Assembly: GCA_001692895.1 (NCBI GenBank) | Contig: KV748261.1 | Coordinates: forward strand, 434,001 to 498,000 | Direction: 5' to 3' | Source: Cenococcum geophilum 1.58 | Taxonomy: Eukaryota; Ascomycota; Dothideomycetes; Gloniales; Gloniaceae | Length of the DNA stretch: 64,000 bases | Part shown: in pieces, positions 10,947-58,491 of the stretch | How the letters are laid out: every line of letters begins with the position of its first letter | How positions within the stretch are numbered: position 1 is the first letter of the stretch | The notes under the pieces: generated by a model | What the model was told of the DNA's origin: nothing | Database searches by the model: none | What the model saw: the letters and a program-made list of their open reading frames with translations, nothing else | Translations under genes and position numbers: made by a program

Positions 10947-11007
10947 ATTAAGATGTCCAGGAACTTTAACCGGCGGTCGAAGTTGTCTAATTAGTTAAAT
11001 TCTTAGA
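10947..11007 (+). repeat. Post-pol block shared by Gypsy-1 and Gypsy-C
   Basis: About 60 bp starting at TTAAGATGTC, containing GAACTTTAACC and GTTGTCTAATT, recur at 58011-58072 in Gypsy-C, in both cases just after the chromodomain-like end of pol. The LTR termini of the two elements are also alike while the rest of the LTRs differs. This suggests two families of one lineage with a conserved 3' untranslated block. Confidence 0.7.
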
Positions 11008-19565: not shown

Positions 19566-19651
19566 GGAGAATCTAGTTGATAAGCTGCAACTGTATCCGG
19601 AAAGTATGTGCTAATATAGGTGGATAGACATTTGGGGAGGGATCTCCTCTA

Positions 19652-19698
19652 ACGTGTTCGGCAAGCAAGTGGCCACTGCAAGCATGTGGCCACCCCAC
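19652..19698. repeat. Left terminal inverted repeat of the Fot1 element
   Basis: 47 bp beginning ACGTGTTCGGCAAGC, matching the complement of 38330-38376 at 46 positions. It contains an internal direct duplication of a GCAAGC-GTGGCCA unit, a possible paired transposase binding site. Confidence 0.95.
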
Positions 19699-19929
19699 CA
19701 AGCCACCAACGCCAAATATTGCAAATTACTCAACCACGAACAGTTGTATTTGGTGTAGCTATCTACTAGCTACTTATTTGACGTCTAGGGCACGTACGTG
19801 CATTATGTTCTGTTGATGCGCACATGCTGCACTTGGGTAATGCTCGTTGCGGTCGCTCGGCCGCTGCCTCTACCGTAGCCTCCTCATGCCTAGTTTGAGC
19901 AGCTTGTGTATGAGAGGCCCCTTCTGCTC

Positions 19930-20115
19930 CTAATAGAATACCCCCCCTAGCTATATACGTGCGCCGCTGCGCCTTCTTCTTTTTCTAGCGCTGGTTTTTT
20001 ATGCGTAGCTTCTTATTTTTGCTTGCAAGCAGCACAGCGCTTAATATTGCTATTTCGCAACCCTTAATAAGCTAGCTAAGGGCTTGTTTTGTTGGACTTG
20101 GTGGGCTATACGTAC
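19930..20115 (-). pseudogene. Fot1 transposase, basic C-terminal end
   Basis: The minus strand gives a lysine/arginine-rich run (RKRRRRS) typical of the C-terminus of Fot1/pogo transposases. It lies between Copia-2 and the left inverted repeat. The reading frame is interrupted by stops. Confidence 0.6.
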
Positions 20116-20335
20116 TGTAAGCTTTTGCAGTGTGTGGGAAATGAATAAGCGACTTAATTGTAAATCTATGGAAATCAAGTGATATAAATACATGAGGAAG
20201 GTGTTGGTAATAAGACAAAAGGGGAGACTACTACGTAACTAAAACAGCGTGATACGTATGTAATACGCAGGCGATACGTAGTCAATACGCAGGTAATACG
20301 CAGGTGTTTTGGCATAGTACCGGTAGTCAGTTATA
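20116..20335 (-). repeat. 3' LTR of Copia-2
   Basis: 220 bp, about 98 percent identical to 28015-28234. It is preceded by the duplicated target CGTAC at 20111-20115. Confidence 0.94.
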
Positions 20336-21456
20336 CACCCCCTCAGATTTAACGGTGTAGTCAAAGCTATAAAAAAATAAAGGTTAAAACTATACCAAAA
20401 TAGAAAATTTAGATATAATTTAGGAGTAGTAAAAGAATGGGGTAACCGTGATGGATATTGCGAATATCGCGGATATTACGGATATTGCGAATTAATTAAT
20501 CTAATATCAAATATCCACTAAATTTAACTGCTTTATCTATGCTTCATGCTTTTAACGAGGTAAGATTTTAATAAGACCGTTAGTAGGCATTTTGGCCGTA
20601 GGAACCCATTAAACGTTAATCTTTTTGTCTTAGACTTCCTGTTTTAGCTAGTGCTAATAGACGTTAATATATCGAAGCTTGGTATCAAGTTTTGGTATAT
20701 CCTATTTTAGGAGTTATATAGTCTGCATATTATCGCAGAGTACGGTAAATTCGCGTTCTAAGTTAAAGCTAATTGCCTTAAAGAACCGTTGCCACTAGAT
20801 AATTTTAACTGCGGTAGTAGATAGGGAGAGAAGCTTTACTTTAGTAGTTAAGTGAGTAACAGATCGCTATAGGGTCGCTTTCCAATTAATTAGACCTCTA
20901 AATAGTATAAAAAGATATCCTTAAGAGCTCTATCTAGTCTCCTTATGGTCCATAAATACTGCGTCAGATGCTCTATAAAAGGTAACGTCTTCTCCTTTAG
21001 GGTTTCTAAAGTATATATATACTCCAAATACTTCGCTAGAGTATTTAATAGCTGTAGATTTTATTTTAAGGTAGTAGGTAATTGCTTAGTTTACTATATT
21101 AAGGTACTTTTAATTTAGATTAGTAAGGAATTCGGCTAGCTTAGAATATATCTTAGTAATATTAGGTCTTCTAAATACGGCAAGGTGTATAAGAAAACCA
21201 ACCCGTTACTAATAGGCTAGTGTTTTTTAAGGGTTCGTCTACTGGTTAGACGGAATTAGTTCTTTAGCAGGAAGTAGTAACTTAGGAAATCTTCCTAGTA
21301 GTTAAATATTAAATTAATTAGCTATCCTTTTAATATAGAAATCTTGGCAGAGCTAGGCATCAGGAAATTTTTTTTTGGGCACGTTGTTGCAAGCGAAAAT
21401 CGGGGTCTGCAAAACCTGCGTAAGTCGCAATTTGCGGCGATTCGCAGCAATTTGCT

Positions 21457-25935: not shown

Positions 25936-26207
25936 TGTATAATTATAGCACCTGTTGTACCAACCGCGTGCTTACGCGGTTGGTACACTAACTACGCGTT
26001 TACGCGTTCGGTGCACTAACCACCCGCTTACGCGTCTGGTGCACTCCTAAAGCACTAACTAATTAGGGGGAGGTCGCATTAGTATATAGACTACGTAGTC
26101 TGCTTCAATACAATCGACAGTCACTACCATCCCAAAGAGCATACGATACTATACGTATTTCGTGCCCCGGGATATGACTTAATTGTATTATTAAGTTGAT
26201 ACAAATA
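25936..26207. repeat. Probable solo LTR in Copia-2
   Basis: 272 bp starting TGTATAATTA and ending ACAAATA, flanked by AAGGT at 25931-25935 and 26208-26212. The Copia-1 sequence near 2465-2480 gives the empty site. It holds three tandem units of about 28 bp that can fold (core GCTTACGCG with pairing arms), then a TATA-like GTATATAGAC. A lone LTR left after recombination between two LTRs is the simplest reading; the parent family is not present here. Confidence 0.65.
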
Positions 26208-28000
26208 AAGGTTAATTGAGTTATTAAATCTAGGGTATCTATGGGCGTAGGATCTCTATATATCAGCGCCTAGTGGCCCCCTAGTCGTTTTACATAGTAT
26301 ACTGTTTCGCCAGTTGCTAGACGGTATAGCAAGTTTCGTCCTAAGTCGAAATAAATATCGTTATTAGTAGCTCTTAAGAGTGCTATAATATTTGTAAATA
26401 TAGTAGGTACCAATGCTATATAGGATAGCTTTATCTTTAAGCTCCTAGTATGTGTATTAACAGTAATGGTTACTGTTCCGTAAGCTTAAATCTTTTTAAA
26501 ATTTCCGCTAGTAATTAGGTAGTCGTCTTCTGCTACTAGGTACGAGAAGGTGAAGTCTTTTTTGTTATTATAGACGTGTATATCTGCGCTAGGGTTAAGT
26601 ATCTAGGTGTTCTAGAGTTTAAATGGAATTCAACCAGTACTGAATATAGCAGTATATCTAGTCGGTGTCTTAGAAGGTGGGGTTTTAGAATTAAAATCAA
26701 TTATAGATTCTATATTTTTTTAATTATCCTTCTTTACCCTTTATTTTTTAATCTATTTGACAATACGTTTAATCCAAGATATAGATAAAATCTTTTTATC
26801 TACTTCCTTCTAAATATCTAGGTTTAGTTTCCATCCTTAAGGGCGCCTATACTTAGCGATATAGTAGCAGTCGCTAAATTAATATATAAAGCCGCATACA
26901 CATATCTTATTCCACTTAGAATTAGAATTAGAATTGCCGTTGGAATCTAAATTAGAATTCGAATTGCCTTATAGGGTTATAAATGCAGAGCTATTAGCAG
27001 TGGTAGCAGAGGATGCCACTTACTGCATACGGTAGTGCTCCTTAAATTCCTCAATCAGTTCGATAATAGATGGTGCATCTTCGCCCTTCCGTTCCTTATA
27101 AATAAGGTCTACTTCTAGGGCTCCTACAAAGCTAGAAGAGATAGGCTTAATAGCTTAAACAAAATCGTAGTGTGGCCTAAATCCCTATACGTCTGGTAGC
27201 TCCAATTGTTCCGTAAGTTTATAGACGTTCCGCCAACTATTTAACCATTTATTAATACTCTGCTTTTTATTATAGGCTTTTAAAGCCGTGTATTAATTAA
27301 GGATGTTATACTTTTAACCTAAGGTAGTAGGGGTAAGAGCAGTCTTTAGTGCCTGTAGCCGTTTATATACCGTATCTAGGCCGTTAATAAGGGGGAGGTA
27401 GGCTACTAATATTAAGCGAATGATATAGTTGCTGATATCGTATATAGCCTGTTTTCGCCTTTAATGTACGCGTAGGTCGTTTTTATATTTGGCGTAGAGC
27501 TAATTGTAGGCTGTAAGCTTAATTTGGTCTAGCTAAGCTATCGATGTAGCATTAAGAAGTACGTCCGCAGGTATAGGTCGATGCGGTGGTTCTAGCTTTG
27601 GGAGCTTATCTTTCTTCTTAGATGGGTCGATATACTTCTATACCTTGTTAGTTTTGGCTGTATCTTGGATAATGAAGAACCATTAAATCCAGTTAGATGG
27701 CTGGTTGAGGATGAGGTTAACTTTTGATTCGTTTATGGTCGTTATTTTTAGAATTTGTGGGGTCAGGTAGGGTCTAATTGGTGGCTTGGCGAAAACCTTA
27801 TTTTGACGTTTCAAACTTTTGATTTGATTGGTCGGTCGTCATTTGAGGTTGATCGTCCGTTCGTTTAGTAGATGAAGAAGCTTAAGACACTTGTAAAGGT
27901 AGTAGAAGTAGTGACTTCTTGAATAAGGTAGCAAATTGACTGCTTGACAGATGGTGCAACAGGTAGATTAATCCAATTAATTGGTTAGCAGGTAGTGTAA

Positions 28001-28014
28001 TCTAGGCTTATAAC
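28001..28014 (-). promoter_or_regulatory. Primer-binding site of Copia-2
   Basis: The plus strand reads TCTAGGCTTATAAC immediately inside the 5' LTR. It aligns with the Copia-1 and Copia-3 sites and with the anticodon arm of initiator tRNA-Met after a few C-to-T changes. Confidence 0.55.
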
Positions 28015-28234
28015 TGTAAGCTTTTGCAGTGTGTGGGAAATAAATAAGCGACTTAATTGTAAATCTATGGAAATCAAGTGATATAAATACATGAGGAAGG
28101 TGTTGGTAATAAGACAAAAGGGGAGACTACTACGTAACTAAAACAGCGTGATACGTATGTAATACGCAGGCGATACGCAGTCAATACGCAGGTAATACGC
28201 AGGTGTTTTGGCATAGTACCGGTAGTCGGTTACA
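28015..28234 (-). repeat. 5' LTR of Copia-2
   Basis: 220 bp partner of 20116-20335, followed by CGTAC at 28235-28239. It contains several direct repeats around AATACGCAGG. Confidence 0.94.
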
Positions 28235-28239
28235 CGTAC

Positions 28240-33085: not shown

Positions 33086-33261
33086 TGTCGGGAATGAGGC
33101 AAGCGGTCGTCACGTGTCATCACGTGTCGCCGCGGCACTAGCGTGGCGAGGAGCCTTAAGCTCTTCGCCCTCCCTTATTTTAATAACAAGCTTTATTAAC
33201 CAACATCACTATAACCCTACTCGAGTAGTCGTTATTGGTAAGTCACCCTATATGACCAACA
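33086..33261 (+). repeat. Left LTR of the non-autonomous element
   Basis: 176 bp, starts TGTCGGGAATG, contains paired CACGTGTC motifs. CCTAC precedes it. Confidence 0.93.
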
Positions 33262-34149
33262 CTGATTAGTGGTTAAATACACAGTTAACTATAGAGCAGC
33301 TAGGTTATTAACAGAAGAGACAGTCTTATATAGGGGTGCTATATACGCTTATATGGAATGGATCCCGGCGATACTGTGCTACCTTAAACTTACGGAAAAC
33401 TAGTAACAGAAGTGTTACTAAGTACTAGGAGATACTAAGTTGCGTCTATTACGCGAAACAACTACGTTTACAAAAATTTAGTTAAGTACTTTAGGTCAGA
33501 AGTGTTACTAAACCTAAGGTCCTAAGTTAACGTCCAAAACGCGTCAAACAACATCTTAAATTGCCTACCTTTTAATAGCAAACCTACGAAATCCTATAAA
33601 ACCGAAAACCCTACCTACCTTCGACGTACGATACCTCGTCGATTCTACCTACTATAGCGTTAACCTATCCAAAGAAGTACGAGAAAGATATTAACCCAGA
33701 GATATAGGACAGAGCCATAACCAACTTTGTAACCGCCAAACAATAGGACCTAAATGGATTTTTAGTACACCGCATAGAACACTATAAAGACAGCAAATAT
33801 AATAATACTGTGCTATAGTATTGTATAAAGGAGGACTTTATAGGATAGATAAAGGAAACATAGGCTCTTGCGAAGAAGACTATCGTATAAGACTTTTATA
33901 ACTTCCTTCGGGAGAACGGAGTCTTTGTCCCTATGGATGGAGGCATTATTAGAGATAATATTCAGGAACATGTTATTAACGCAAAAGAAGAACACGAATG
34001 GACTCCATAAGAGATTAAGCACTAAAAGAAGCTTAGCTTACGATAGAATCTACAAGAAATTAAGCACCAAAAGAAGCTCAACTTATAAGGGAATCTAAGC
34101 AATACACCACTAGAGACACTTCCGCCTCTATCTTCAGCTCCACATCCAT

Positions 34150-34245
34150 CGCTTTTACCTCCGTCTTTAGTTCCGTACCCATCGCTTCTACCTCCGTCTT
34201 TAGTTCCGTATCCATCACTTCTACCTCCGTCTTTAGTTTCCCAGT
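34150..34245. repeat. Three 33-bp tandem repeats
   Basis: Units built around CTACCTCCGTCTTTAGTTCC inside the non-autonomous LTR element. The period is a multiple of three. Confidence 0.85.
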
Positions 34246-34501
34246 ATCTGCTAATTTAACTCGCAACTTTAACTACTGCCCCTTAAGAGCAAGCGCAAGA
34301 TCCCCTTGCTTCGCGATCCAATAACCTCTAAACTCCGCTATAGCAAGATCAGGTACCATGCCCTATTCTATTAAGCTCTACGTTCCTACCACAGCCCTTG
34401 CTTGTAGAGCTTACGAAGCTCTATTCGGACCAGGAGAAGAAGTTTTACAAGGAATTAGAATACGGCAGAGGGTACGATCAATGTCGGCCACGAAGCACTT
34501 G

Positions 34502-34676
34502 TGGAGGTTCTCGTGGAGATCCTCATAGAGGTCCTCGTGGAGGTCCTCGTGGGGATCCTCGTGGAGGTCCTCGTGGAGGTCCTCGCGGAGGTCCTCGCGG
34601 AGGTCCTCGTGGAGGTCCTTATAGAGGTCCTCGTGGATGTTCTTGTGGAGGTCCTCATAGAGGTCCTCGTGGAGCA
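34502..34676. repeat. About fifteen 12-bp repeats (GGAGGTCCTCGT)
   Basis: A minisatellite just before the RNase H remnant. It is open in several frames on both strands, giving GGPRGGPR-, EVLVEVLV- and HEDLHEDL-type peptides. Two neighbouring units usually differ by one or two bases. Confidence 0.95.
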
Positions 34677-34902
34677 TCAAGAACTGTTTGGGATTCGATG
34701 GATTAATGGCCAAGACAACCCGGCAGATGCGATAACAAAGGCAATTTAAGAGTATTCCTATTGGTCAACTATCGTTCCCATTTACTCGAGCTAGCCGTAT
34801 CCAGTTACACTCCGCTAGCTCCGCAACCCTATTTCAACGACGCAGTTTCCTAGGGCGTGCTACCTACCAAATTCTGCCATATTCTGCCGACCCCGACGTC
34901 CG

Positions 34903-34952
34903 CTAACCAATTAGGATTTTCCATCCCCGGGATGGAAAATCGCTATTGGCTT
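34903..34952. repeat. 50-nt hairpin module, copy 1
   Basis: A 27-nt perfect palindrome with one central base (34915-34941, arm GATTTTCCATCCC) is extended outward by imperfectly pairing CCAAT/ATTGG arms. It lies about 150 bp before the right LTR. A second copy with a compensated stem is at 58135-58184. Confidence 0.9.
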
Positions 34953-35104
34953 ACTTACTACTAGCGCCTTGGCGGCAACCTTATCTTCGCGTTAAACCCT
35001 AACGTCCTTCCTTTTCTTCTTCTTCTTTTCCTTAGCTTTATATCTTTATATAGTAGCAATCTGTAAGTGTATATAGATAGCAACCATAAAAGAAGAGTTG
35101 CCAG

Positions 35105-35280
35105 TGTCGGGAATGAGGCAAGCGGTCGTCACGTGTCGTCACGTGTCGCCGCGGCACTAGCGTGGCGAGGAGCCTTAAGCTCTTCGCCCTCCCTCATTCT
35201 AACAACAAGCTTTATTAACCAACATCACTGTAACCCTACTTGAGTAGTCGTTATTGGTGAGTTACCCTATGTGACCAACA
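35105..35280 (+). repeat. Right LTR of the non-autonomous element
   Basis: 176 bp partner of 33086-33261, followed by CCTAC. Confidence 0.93.
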
Positions 35281-38283: not shown

Positions 38284-38329
38284 TGAGGTTGTAGTTGTAT
38301 AACGCGTCGCGTGTCTTTTCGCGATTTTA

Positions 38330-38376
38330 GTGGGGTGGCCACATGCTTGCAGTGGCCACATGCTTGCCGAACACGT
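38330..38376. repeat. Right terminal inverted repeat of the Fot1 element
   Basis: Mirror of 19652-19698 and followed by the TA target duplicate. The transposase start codon lies 47 bp inside it, at 38283. Confidence 0.95.
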
Positions 38377-39320
38377 TATTAAGAAGTAGCTTACCCAACC
38401 CCAGAGAAAAATAAGTTATGGTGGGGAAGTTCTATCTTAAAAGCATAAGAAAACTGTAAAGTGTAAGGGTGCAAAACGCGCCTATTTTCTCTCAGACCCT
38501 CGGAGAGGAATTCGCCTCGCGCATGCCCTAGATTACGTTACCTACCCCTTAGTGCTATCTAATTGGCTATATTGGTCGCGCACGGTGCCTTCCTTGGCAG
38601 AATTTTACAACATGATTGCATAAAATGCATATCAAGGTGCAGAGGTCGATTCCTCAACGAGGGTCTAGGGCACCTGAGATAATACGGGCGCTGGTAGTGA
38701 ATATTATAGTGGCTGGGACTACATACATACAGCCCATTCCGCCCTGTCCGTAGCTCAATAATACAACAACATCACTTATCTTAACATTATCAGCTATAAA
38801 TGGCAGCTTCCTCAACGAATGCTGGCCCGTACGGGCCTGCTAGACGACCAATCACGAACTAGTTCCGTCCCGCATGAGCTTGGCGCCCGAGCGTGTCGCC
38901 TATGCAGCCCACATGCTACCCGTTTCGCTATATGCACGTTTTACTATGTGCTTGTTTTGCTATGTGCTTGTTTCGCTATATATCCGTTTGGTTATGTGTC
39001 ACGGCTCCAAGAGCTCGACGGCTAACATGAAGGAGCGCTTCCATCCGTTAAGGCTTCGCTGCGGACGCCGAGCCACTCTCCATCCAAGAGCACGTGCGGC
39101 CTAGCTTCGTCGACATTTGAGGGATATTTGCCTTCAGCTCGAAAAATCCATCCACATGGAATGTCACGGAGTTATCTATGAAATCCATAGGAGGCATTTT
39201 AATGAATGAGTTTGGTGAGAACTGCTCGATTCAATGCTATATGAGACAAGAAACCCTTATTCGGTTCCTGAGAAGGCGTGGAATGAGGCGGAGGAGGACA
39301 TACACCGGTCCTTTTTGAGC
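38377..39320. other. Host intergenic region, nothing recognised
   Basis: About 0.9 kb between the Fot1 right end and the RNase H gene. Base composition is host-like. A short imperfect repeat (CTATGTGCTTGTTT) occurs near 38943-38970. The open frames here have no recognisable domain. Confidence 0.55.
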
Positions 39321-52599: not shown

Positions 52600-52787
52600 C
52601 TGTCACGGCACTGACCTGACGCATACTGTTTCATACTATCTCGTACTATTCCCTACTGTTGGCTAGCCCACCACTAGCGACTTGGCGGCCGGCCCTACTA
52701 TTTATATACAATACCCCCTTTCCACCTTCTTCCCCTCTTTATACCATAACATAGTTATTTAGTCTACTTTATTGCAGCACTGTAACA
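52600..52787 (+). repeat. 5' LTR of Gypsy-C
   Basis: 188 bp, nearly identical to 58305-58491. It includes GGCGGCCGGCC, conserved in both copies. Confidence 0.93.
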
Positions 52788-54523
52788 GTTTGTGGTATCT
52801 TTAATTTGCGCCCCATCGCGATCACTGATTCCCCATACCCTAGCCAATTAACCTCCGCCCCAGAGCAATCGCGACCTATACGCGCCTCTGCTAAAACCGA
52901 CACGTCCCCAGTACAGTCCTAGAACAATCCTTAGTTTTTACCTAGCGCCTAGATGGGCGATACTAACGACGCCAAAATGGCCGAAACTTAGAACCCCCGC
53001 GACGTTTTTGTAGACCTATTTATAGAGATATACCCCAATATTGCGTGGACAATCTACTGCTCCCCACTGTACCCTAAGACCTTTAAGCCTAGTAAAGCTT
53101 ACCTTACCCTTATTAACTATACCAATAAGTTCCTTAACAACATTAAAGTAGGACTATAGTGTATATATAACACAAACACCACCAACAAGAAAGCTAACAA
53201 AAACCTTAGTGCCCTTATCGCTTCCTAGATAGGAACTATTAACTCCTAGGCAAAGACTATTACCGTTCTAAAATAATTAACCCCTATAACAACGGTAGTA
53301 ACCTAGTAGAAAAAACGGAGATCTAAAGACCCGCTAATATTCAGCGGAAAAGGCACCCCGCTAGAATAATAAGCTAATTTTAAGACCTGGCATATTAAGA
53401 TTAAGGGAGTCTTTAACCAGGACTGGGACTACTTTAACACAGTTTAGTCCCAGATCCTTTACATCTTAGACATACTAGAGGATAAGGCCTATAAGTTTAT
53501 TAAGTAGGGCCTAGAGCTTATATATAAGAACCTAAATAACACATCTATGTAGAAATGGCCTACTAAGGAAGATATGCTTAAAGACCTTACTGCCTACTAT
53601 GAGGTCCTTAATATAACCTAGGTCGCAAAGAATAAGCTTAACCATTTCCCCTAAGGCGAGCGTAATTACTGGTTCTGGAAGGGAGAGCTTAATAAGCTAA
53701 TAGTCCGCGCTAAGAAAACAAATAAATAGAAGGTGGACCTACTCTAAAAGTTTATCTCTCCAAAAATGGAAGAGCTAGTACTTAGACTGGCCTATAAAAT
53801 TAACGATAGTAACTATATAGGTTAGAGTAAGCAGATGGATGTATTTGCTAAGAACCTCGCGAACTATATACACCAAGCCAACCTTAAGAAAAACGCTAAC
53901 TACTGCCTACCTGCCCAAGCCCCTGCCCCTATGTTAACCCTAACCCTAATAGTAACTAGAGAACCTATAGACCTTAATAGAATCTTAGATATAGAGCGCA
54001 AGCGCCGCGTTAATAATAGACTGTGCCTTGCCTATGGCCTACCCGGCCACTGGAAGGATGCCTATAACCCCACTAAGATAGTAAACCTAGTCCTAATACC
54101 ACCCCGTTAAATAACGCGAATAAATAACCGCGGACGCGGCGACTGTGGAGTCTATTATAGACGCGGTAACCGCGGAGCCTATTATGGCCGCGGCGGACAA
54201 CCCCCCCCCTTTAACCCTACGGCTTAGTTACTCCAAACCATGCCCTATATAGGAGCCCAACCCGTTAACAATGCCTAGTATTAGTAACTTCGCGCTAGCA
54301 AATACGAATACGGCTATGTTGTCGGCGAGGTATTATCTTCCTATACCCCAACTAAAATAGAGACAGACACTACCAGCTAGACGGACACTAGACCGCCCCG
54401 CTAAGACAGCCCCGTACCCTAGTTGTTAAAAGGTAAACCCTTAGACTAAGTTGCGCCTAAGGGTTTAAACCATATAAGGAGGAAGATAAGAAGATTAGGT
54501 CCCTATTACTAGATTAATTAGTC

Positions 54524-55023
54524 NTTTNTATTANTAAACTNCNACTTAATCTTANATNANNAAANANTAANAAGAAATTAATCCTTATTTAAACCTAACT
54601 CTCCTTATTACGTAACCTATACCCCTAAGTTTATATTAATACAGTAAGCCTAGTAAACTCCGGTAGTACTGCAATAGCATTTACTAACGCAGAGTCTATT
54701 GTAAGAAAGTATAACGTTATAACTAAGAAGCTGCTAGCACCTAGGCCACTACGCCTTATAGATAGCATCCTAACTTCGCTTATTACGGACTACTTTACTA
54801 CCCAAATGTTAATCGGCCTCTATACTAAAGCCATACTCTTTTTTATTACCAAACTCTCGCCTACTACCCTAATTATTCTAGGTATGCCCTGGCTTTAGAA
54901 GCACGAGCCCCGTCCTAGCTTTAGGAAACTTAAGATCCGCTTTAACTTAGACTACTNCTNTAGGCACTACCTNCNGTAGGGGATAGCNGACGTTANTAGG
55001 GACGCCCTATNTNGANACTTAGN
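54524..55023. other. Two clusters of isolated ambiguous bases in Gypsy-C
   Basis: Single Ns are scattered at 54524-54571 and 54957-55023, both inside Gypsy-C. The pattern is the same as at 9470-9513 in Gypsy-1 and points to unresolved differences between merged repeat copies. Confidence 0.9.
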
Positions 55024-58010
55024 ACTACTAAGCCTAGTGCCTAGGACTATATATAAAGCCCTAATAATAGAAGACGTTCCTAATAAAGGGGAGCCTATAT
55101 AGCTGCAAAGAAATAAGATAATAAAAGACTAAACTAACCTAGCACTTAAGACCAAAATGATAGGCTAGCTAGCCCTGCCGAGACTAAGGAAGAAGGTCCG
55201 CTTCGCGCCGCTACTATTAAGAAACCAACCCTAACCCAGGCACTATTTAAACCCCGGCCGCCTAGCCTGACACCCAGAACTAAGCCATATGCCATATACG
55301 CACACTATAGCTCGCGTTATAGTAAGGACTGGCTATAGAACTACCGAGACCTAGATAATAGAAACCGCGCCACCGCAACGCCTAACCTTACACCTGTCTC
55401 CCGCGCGTACCGTATAGGGCCGCCGCCTCATTTCCGCCCCCCCGGGCTGACCAAGCCGTGCCAGCCCAGCTATAGCACCAGAGAGCCAGATACGCCCTAA
55501 CCTAGACGATATTAAATGCACCTATACTATTAATTTTACCCAGTTCTATAAACAAAATACCTTGGCTTAATTATCTTAACTAATAGTATAACTATGGACC
55601 CTAAGAAAATACAGGCCTTATAGGAATAGAAGGACCCAACATTAATTAAAGAACTACAACAATTTCTCAGCTTCGCGAACTTCTACCGACGATTTATCTA
55701 AGGCTACTCTGCCATTACTATACCTATAACAAAACTTCTAAAGAAGGATATTAGATAGCTATAGGGACTAGAATAAGCCAAATCATTTAAAGCCCTTAAG
55801 GGAGCCTTTACTTCAGCACCAGTACTAGCATACTATAACTATATAAAGAAAACAGTAGTAGAGACAGACGCATTAAATTAGGCTTCCGGCGGAGTCCTTT
55901 CCTAGTATAATAATAACGGAAAATTAAAACCGGTCGCATTCTTCTCCGTAAAGCACTCCGCGCCAAAATATAACTACAAGATCTACAATAAAGAACTCCT
56001 AGCTATTGTTAAGGCTTTAAAGGAATAGCGTCCTAAGCTATAAGGAACTAAGGAGCCGTTTAAAATTATTACCGATTATAAGAACCTATAAATGTTTATA
56101 ACTACTAAGCAGCTAAACTAGCGCTAAGTCTAGTAGGCAAAGTTCCTTTTACAGTTTAACTTTATAATTATATACAGACCCAGTAACAAAGCCACGCTCC
56201 CTAACGCCCTAAGCCGGCTACTAGGAATAAGGCCCAAGGACGCTAATAATAAACGCCTCCGCCACCGAGCCCAAGTCATTATACCGCCCTAGAAAGTTAA
56301 CCCTATAATCTTAGAAGAATTACTATATAAGTCCCGTAACTCTAACAACGTAAAGTTTATAGCCGCTCTAGACCCTAAAATAGCCGAAAAGTCACTAGAC
56401 GAGTTAATCTGGCTAAAATACCAGAAGAACGAACTCGCAAGAGATATAGTAGCAGCCCTACGTAATTAGAAAGCTCGCCATTAGCTAAAGAAAATTAGGA
56501 AATTACTCTATTATAATAAGTTAGAATATAGTATTATTAACGGATAGATCTACTTCCGCCAACGTCTCTTTATCCCTAACGCCCTAGACCTCCGCCTAGA
56601 AGTTACCCATTACTCTTATAGCAGCGGCCCCGCTAGTTACCCTAGCCGGGTTAAGACTTTTAACCTCTTAAACCAAACATACTAGTAGCTAGGAATCTCC
56701 TAGTTTATAGCTACCTTCGTTAAAGACTATACCCTATACTTTTGCACTAAAACCCCCTATTTTGCCCCGCCCGGTTTCCTAAAGCCATTAAAATTACCCA
56801 CCCACCCATAGACCGATATCTTAATTAACTATATTACAACGCTGCTAGTATACTAACGCTACGGTAAAGTATACGAATATATCCTTGTTATTATGGACCG
56901 CCTAACTAAAATGTAATACCTTATTCTAGTAACAGGACTCTTAATAAAGGAGTTAGTTAATGGCTTTATTAACAACGTATATAAGCTCCATAGTGCACCA
57001 AGTATAATTATCTCTAATTACGGCACACAATTTGTTAGCAACTTCTAGCGATAACTAAGTAAACGCCTTAAGACAACCTTGCGACTAAGCTCAGCCTAGC
57101 ACCCAGAAACGGACGGCTAAACTAAAATTATTAACGCCGCCGTAAATAAATACCTTTGTGCTTTTATTAGCTTTATATAGGACAACTAGGTTAACTACCT
57201 ACCGCTTACTAAGTTTACTACAAATAACTAAGTTAACGAGAGTATAGGCATCTCCCTATTTTTTACAAACTATGGCTTTAACCCTCGCCTTAGAATTAAG
57301 CCTGCTGGCCCCCACCTACTAACACTATTAGCATAAGCAAAGAAGGAGTTCTTCCGCGCAAACTCTATAGCCAACCGCTTTAAGCGGATATTAACACAGC
57401 TTAAGGCCCTAGCCTGGATTTTACAGCAACGCTATAAAGATAATGCTAATACCCGTAGGGATAAGAGCGCGTTATTCTACGAAGGTAATATGGTTATAGT
57501 TAGCTTAGAAAATATAAAGATAAATAGACCTAAGAAGAAATAGGACGACAAATGGGACGGCCCGTACCCTATACTCGCAGTATACTAAAGGGCAGTCGTA
57601 GTAGACCTCCTAGACCACATCTAAGTAAATAAATCCTTTTATATATCTAAGGTCCGCCTCTAGGCTGCTAAAGAGATCTCTAGCTAAGTAAATATTAATA
57701 CTATAGAGCGCCGTAATGTATAAGGACGAGTAGCAGAGAGAGATAATAACGGCAACATAAAAGACAAATAGGAGTTTAAGAAAATCCTTAATATACACAA
57801 CGAAGACCCCCAGGGCCTAACTTATAAGATTAAATAGAAATATTATAAGGATATAACCTAGTAGCTAGAGGAAGACCTAAAGGGTTGCGAATAAGCTATA
57901 TAGCGCTTTTATAAGCAACACCCTAAAAAGCTAGGACCCCTAAACTAGGTATAAGATAAGGAAAAGTTACGCCAAGGTCGCGGCCGACTACCGCATTAAA
58001 ATTTGTGGTG

Positions 58011-58072
58011 GTTAAGATGTCATAGAACTTTAACCAGCGGTTAAAGTTGTCTAATTGGCCAAATTCTCACTA
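58011..58072 (+). repeat. Post-pol block shared by Gypsy-C and Gypsy-1
   Basis: Second copy of the block at 10947-11007, here just after the chromodomain-like end of Gypsy-C and about 60 bp before the hairpin module. Confidence 0.7.
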
Positions 58073-58134
58073 AGAAACGCCACACGGACCGATTTAGGTA
58101 GTGGTATAGAGTTCTACTAACCTTACTTACTAAA

Positions 58135-58184
58135 CTAACCAATTAGGATTTTCTATGCCCGGCATAGAAAATCGCCATTAGCTT
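58135..58184. repeat. 50-nt hairpin module, copy 2
   Basis: A perfect 27-nt palindrome (58147-58173, arm GATTTTCTATGCC) has the same outer arms as copy 1 at 34903-34952. The stem differs from copy 1 at two positions on each arm, and pairing is kept on both. It lies about 120 bp before the 3' LTR of Gypsy-C. Confidence 0.9.
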
Positions 58185-58304
58185 GGTTAAGGGCGGTAAG
58201 CGGAACTAACATCTTTACAGTAGAAAATAGGCAACCCCGTATACTGCCTATTTTTAAGTTATCTATTTAGTTTGGGGACCAAACCGTCTAGGGGAGAGGA
58301 GTAC

Positions 58305-58491
58305 TGTTACGGCACTAACCTGACGCATACTGTTTCATACTATCTTATACTATTCCCTACTATTGGCTGGCCCACTACTAGCGACTTGGCGGCCGGCCCT
58401 ACTATTTATATACAATACCCCCTTTCCACCTTCTTCCCCTCTTTATACCACAACGTAGTTATTTAGTCTACTTTATTGCAGCACTGTAACA
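58305..58491 (+). repeat. 3' LTR of Gypsy-C
   Basis: 187 bp partner of 52600-52787, followed by CTATC. Confidence 0.93.

Follow-up and report, generated by a model that had tools for sequence, protein, structure and literature searches.

A hairpin module common to the 3' ends of two LTR elements, one Copia and one Gypsy, in the fungus Cenococcum geophilum

The stretch of DNA analysed here (64 kb, referred to below as the window) contains two LTR elements of different superfamilies that have a short palindromic module in common (Table 1). The first is a Copia element of 2195 bp with 176-bp LTRs, intact ends, and a perfect 5-bp TSD (CCTAC) on both sides. Several of its attributes, the 5-bp TSD among them, are those given for fungal GalEa elements, a group of Copia elements whose described features include an RNase H ending in ADxxTK and the sequence CHSeq1 (PMC5445492). 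The LTRs of that group are described as bounded by TGT and CA and as 138–311 bp long, one outlier apart (PMC5445492), and the LTRs of the present element, which begin with TGTCGG and end with CCAACA, agree with this in both respects. CHSeq1 follows the 5' LTR and is reported as CTGATCAGT, CTAATTAGT, or a derivative that differs mainly at base 3 or 6 (PMC5445492); here, the corresponding sequence is CTGATTAGT, i.e. CTGATCAGT with a single substitution at the sixth base. The motif ADAITK, recognized by eye, stands shortly ahead of the stop at position 34749, past which the 3' UTR begins, and the open frame that contains it had no match in Pfam. For CHSeq2, expected 12–41 bp further on, the hairpin predicted after the 5' LTR was no better than those of shuffled sequences (z −0.76). 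The internal part measures only 1.8 kb; a single large ORF spanning the protease, the integrase, and the reverse transcriptase is absent, the longest frame being 120 aa. Lacking most of pol, the element is therefore at most a defective GalEa derivative. An earlier description, made from the sequence alone, calls it copia-like and non-autonomous. It also contains 12-base tandem repeats (34498–34674), one frame of which reads Gly-Gly-Pro-Arg.

The second element, Gypsy-C, has 187-bp LTRs, intact ends, and a perfect 5-bp TSD (CTATC). Its assignment to Ty3/Gypsy is based on an RT_RNaseH_2 match on a broken piece (Pfam, E 1.2e-25), the only match of any kind among six pieces submitted, four of which came from this element. 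Downstream of the RNase H, integrase-like letters can be made out by eye, and a 77-aa piece from there had no Pfam match. Separately, a 56-nt island with 84% identity is common to Gypsy-C (58012–58067) and another element, Gypsy-A (10948–11003); it holds a 10-bp hairpin in Gypsy-C, and in Gypsy-A it continues in an apparent pol frame and may be coding.

Table 1. Positions, within the window, of the two elements and of the sequences that they share
Feature	Position	Strand	Remarks
Defective Copia (GalEa-like) element	33086..35280	+	LTRs 33086-33261, 35105-35280; TSD CCTAC
CHSeq1-like CTGATTAGT	33262..33270	+	adjoins 5' LTR of Copia element
Open frame ending NPADAITKAI-stop	34459..34749	+	read by eye as Copia RNase H tail (ADxxTK)
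Module copy 1	34903..34952	+	3' UTR of defective Copia element
Perfect 27-nt palindrome, copy 1	34915..34941	+	
Copia stretch overlapping right arm of module	34943..34976	+	matches Gypsy-C U3, 29/34
Gypsy-C (Ty3/Gypsy)	52601..58491	+	LTRs 52601-52787, 58305-58491; TSD CTATC; pol full of stops
Same U3 stretch, Gypsy-C 5' LTR	52656..52689	+	27/34 to 34943-34976
Module copy 2	58135..58184	+	3' UTR of Gypsy-C
Perfect 27-nt palindrome, copy 2	58147..58173	+	
U3 stretch, Gypsy-C 3' LTR	58360..58393	+	matches 34943-34976, 29/34

The module is present twice in the window, both times on the + strand, and its copies are identical at 44 of 50 positions, including the first 19; the coordinates, the letters, and the 19 identical left bases reported by the sequence-only reading are correct. 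Each copy has at its core a perfect palindrome of 27 nt, composed of 13-bp arms and one centre base. When up to three mismatches were allowed, the 19-mer occurred at these two places only, against 0.03 expected per shuffled window. Among the exact hairpins of the window with arms of at least 9 and loops of at most 8, the two palindromes rank second and third, and the longest exact arms in 10 simulated first-order sequences were 9–11. With loops of at most 20, the window has 3 hairpins with arms of at least 12 (mean 0.15, maximum 2 in 20 simulated sequences) and 11 with arms of at least 10 (mean 2.35, maximum 4). As + strand RNA, the two copies fold with z −4.15 and −4.29. The distance from the module to the 3' LTR is 152 nt in the Copia element and 120 nt in Gypsy-C, within the 120–160 bp given before. 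It is thus confirmed that LTR elements from two superfamilies have a hairpin in common, similarly placed near their 3' ends. The top-ranked exact hairpin of the window is another one, with 14-bp arms (25956–25987), followed up to 26055 by what appear by eye to be two further repeats of its type in degenerate form (ACGCG...GGTGCACT), all inside an element delimited by repeats at 20114–20336 and 28013–28235.

Searches for further copies covered several collections. An Rfam scan of the window at the gathering score yielded no matches. In IMG/VR, which is viral, two module patterns and the island common to Gypsy-A and Gypsy-C gave none, a 68-aa integrase-like piece of Gypsy-A had no relative, and the U3 motif described below gave 8 matches. 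A looser pattern for the left half of the module was found in at least 120 stretches there, which we attribute to chance, as we do the one match to the exact 19-mer: the right arm is absent, and the match lies in an open frame whose repeats, judged by eye, are collagen-like and resemble those of phage tail fibres. Among the GTDB genomes, which are prokaryotic, the strict module pattern was not found, and the loose one occurred at 33 loci, none of which has a fully symmetric gap. A phage collection contained no match to the module, and plasmids contained four weak ones at E 3. No match in these scans could be supported as another copy of the module. The viral, prokaryote, phage, and plasmid collections contain no fungi, and their silence says little about the spread of the module among fungi. 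Among the literature matches listed, none reports the module, and those to its letters are, by their titles, unrelated to fungal repeats.

The surroundings of the module had been described as unrelated in the two elements. This holds for the flanks at corresponding places, for which shuffled sequences aligned as well in 79 of 500 trials upstream and 211 of 500 downstream, and the breakpoints of the shared sequence are sharp because of it. It does not hold for the 34 nt at 34943–34976, which begin in the right arm of the module and whose counterpart is found in the LTR of Gypsy-C, not in its 3' UTR. The match to the 3' LTR has a BLAST E value of 6e-5 when the Copia 3' UTR is compared with the window and of 1.8e-5 with the LTR as query. 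Of the other + strand 34-mers compared, none reached 29 identities to the Gypsy-C LTR (0 of 21114, best 23; every third start in the window, places near either side excluded). The matching part of U3 opens with what we take, by eye, to be an inverted CCAAT box, followed by a presumed TATA-like stretch. Hence, the Copia 3' UTR contains 74 nt (34903–34976) made up of two stretches resembling the 3' end of Gypsy-C, in the same order and on the same strand; the two pieces overlap by nine bases, the equivalents of which start 185 nt apart in Gypsy-C. Descent of the whole 3' region from a common source, which the sequence-only reading had set against its own explanations, receives some backing from the adjoining U3-like match. 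Two further candidates were rejected. A solo-LTR reading of the Copia 3' UTR is unsupported, the Gypsy-C LTR match outside the 34 nt being insignificant (shuffles did equally well in 130 and 401 of 500 trials). A match of the same UTR to positions 27785–27810, in an element termed Gypsy-B, was equalled in 2 of 500 shuffles, but its E values are 0.29 and 0.68, it was one among about ten comparisons, and it was not used.

The six differences between the module copies fall into two kinds. Four (columns 20, 32, 42, and 46) are C/T or G/A transitions in CpA/TpG context, and two (columns 23 and 29) are C/G transversions. Columns 20 and 32 pair with each other in the inner stem, as do 23 and 29, and both pairs are kept in both copies, as had been noted from the sequence. 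The earlier claim of compensated stem changes is correct for these two pairs and incomplete for the outer stem, in which the changes at columns 42 and 46, then unnoticed, each disrupt a pair in copy 2. Altogether, 15 of the 19 stem pairs are invariant, two are altered on both sides, and two are broken in one copy. The further claim that pairing rather than sequence is conserved finds no support in the module itself: sequence is kept throughout, with all 12 unpaired columns identical, and four of the six changes are of the type produced by repeat-induced point mutation (RIP). That RIP has acted on these elements is indicated by dinucleotide indices: TA/AT is 1.49–1.92 in four elements versus 0.51–0.63 in two open-frame regions, and (CA+TG)/(AC+GT) is 0.48–0.71 versus 1.29–1.45. 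RIP would in turn point to a filamentous ascomycete as the host. Between its two LTRs, each element has nine differences; all 18 are transitions, 6 of 9 in each element (12 in total) in CpA/TpG context and the others at CpG or CpT. In the nine-base overlap, the Copia sequence CTATTGGCT agrees with the U3 form at 9/9 bases and with the form in module copy 2 at 7/9; this alone does not decide the origin of the overlap, as both deviations are also of the RIP type and could have arisen in that way.

Four random changes without RIP spared all pairs in only 187 of 400000 trials, which is why the pattern appeared striking from the sequence. Two random changes spared all 13 pairs in 2698 of 200000 trials. 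RIP alone would have struck both arms of pair 20/32 with a chance of 3 in 10, a figure that presumes a pre-RIP module with five intact CpA/TpG sites and three hits in copy 2. Because RIP on both arms can explain this pair, it says little for a fold. The evidence is better for pair 23/29, a truly compensated transversion pair that RIP does not account for; selection may lie behind it, or repair of the stem by template switching. A covariation test, which has no power with two sequences only, gave a value attained by 127 of 500 shuffles. The apparently matched mutations do not prove selection on the fold. If this reading is right, they also suggest caution in covariation analysis more generally: since both arms of a palindrome carry the same CpA site, palindromes in RIP-active fungi can gain matched arm changes without selection for a fold.

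We propose, with moderate confidence, that a GalEa-type Copia element received, in its 3' UTR, copies of a hairpin from a Gypsy-C-like 3' UTR and of a piece of that donor's U3, likely by template switching, and that RIP subsequently altered the sequences. A reverse transcriptase would have switched template at the repeated C(T/C)ATT(G/A)GCT, linking the U3 piece to the module, and a junction at this nine-base repeat would drop the approximately 185 nt in between. A second switch would have occurred at the left breakpoint, which is the base of a strong hairpin, a kind of site at which reverse transcriptase is known to pause in retroviral systems. Strand-invasion sites in such systems are described as normally coinciding with pause sites or with the base of strong hairpins (PMC3187697). 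RIP would then have introduced most of the present differences into both copies, one pair symmetrically. The identity of 44/50, the U3 match, the sharp breakpoints, and the lack of a TSD of at least 4 bases at the module argue for this course of events. The direction of transfer was presumably from Gypsy to Copia by way of RNA, and the module probably has no present function. We infer template switching in preference to DNA recombination, whose marks would be the same. Fused LTR retrotransposons, in which sequence of one element is likewise joined to that of another, have been attributed to reverse transcription, with template switching as the proposed mechanism; those are large fusions in Triticeae, whereas the present case comprises 74 nt across superfamilies in a fungus (PMC1950507). 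Against capture stands that the joint of both pieces was not found as one donor piece, and the complete 74 nt could belong to a third family not seen here. Co-packaging of Copia with Gypsy RNAs is expected to be infrequent. The compensated pair 23/29 is outside the RIP explanation, and the comparable spacing between module and 3' LTR in the two elements fits selection as well. If the proposal is right, a Copia element and a Gypsy element have exchanged sequence at a hairpin within one fungal genome.

The module might instead function as an RNA hairpin in the 3' UTRs of LTR elements, serving stability, export, or reverse transcription, and have been selected and passed between families. This we consider unlikely, even though the inner stem is perfectly paired in each copy, one transversion pair being compensated, and the module occupies the same region of both elements. 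Gypsy-C also has further exact hairpins nearby, at 58026–58048 and 58224–58254, such that 3 of the 11 window hairpins with arms of at least 10 and loops of at most 20 fall within 230 nt at its 3' end; the hairpin at 58224–58254 has 10-bp arms and an 11-nt loop. The 3' ends of the Copia element and of Gypsy-C fold better than shuffled sequences (z −2.47 and −4.18, the contribution of the module included), but that of Gypsy-A, examined as a control, has no excess folding (z +1.15), the outer-stem changes are uncompensated, and sequence is kept as much as pairing in what are only two copies. Moreover, a mutational path to compensated pairs exists: template-switch mutations are described as yielding compensated stem changes without stepwise selection, with stems being created or repaired (PMC8794818). 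That work concerns RNA genes and ancestral reconstruction, whereas a single transversion pair in two sequences is at issue here.

A comparable case at the 5' end is the Conserved Hairpin Site (CHS) of GalEa elements, a short hairpin-bearing non-coding stretch that is, to the surprise of its authors, conserved between distant families, as the module is; in its extended form (33–62 bp), it is shared by distant families in one fungal species, for which its authors infer selection (PMC5445492). The present Copia element itself bears a CHSeq1-like sequence, as GalEa elements do. The CHS, however, adjoins the 5' LTR and occurs in different GalEa families (PMC5445492), whereas the module precedes the 3' LTR and is found in one Copia and one Gypsy element. 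If the module were an exchangeable RNA element of 3' ends, acquired and kept across superfamilies because it serves reverse transcription or the fate of the RNA, it would be the 3'-end counterpart of the CHS; we regard this as decidedly unlikely, and two copies cannot separate selection from recent capture.

The symmetry of the module continues as far as the central base, leaving less room than an RNA loop needs, and would suit a function of the DNA, such as a promoter or putative protein-binding palindrome with facing CCAAT boxes related to the U3 block of Gypsy-C. In copy 1, CCAAT stands on the left side and its inverted form on the right (seen by eye; that these motifs are CCAAT boxes is our assumption), the 34-nt U3 match preserves the CTATTGGCT-ACTAGCG spacing exactly, and the U3 block lies directly ahead of the presumed TATA-like stretch in Gypsy-C. 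Both copies, however, are located upstream of the 3' LTR, distant from the promoter in the 5' LTR, and the right CCAAT has been lost in copy 2, which leaves this function quite improbable.

A tiny mobile palindrome inserting itself at the 3' ends of LTR elements, one of the explanations offered by the sequence-only reading, would account for the sharp edges, the near-perfect palindrome, and the unrelated flanks. It is very improbable: no TSD of at least 4 bases was found at the module with edges shifted by up to 6 bases (the best repeat has 3), unlike what is expected of a MITE, there are two copies only in 64 kb, and, given the adjoining U3-like match, what the two elements share extends beyond the palindrome. 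Separate acquisition by both elements from a third repeat or host sequence outside the window would agree with the absence of a direct donor within the 64 kb examined but would also have to supply both pieces of the Copia 3' UTR that match Gypsy-C, and is the most improbable of all.

The window also includes an inverted pair of 52-nt sequences (19650–19701 and 38327–38378) that are 96% complementary, have a GTGGCCAC-bearing unit twice per arm, and resemble a small dispersed repeat.
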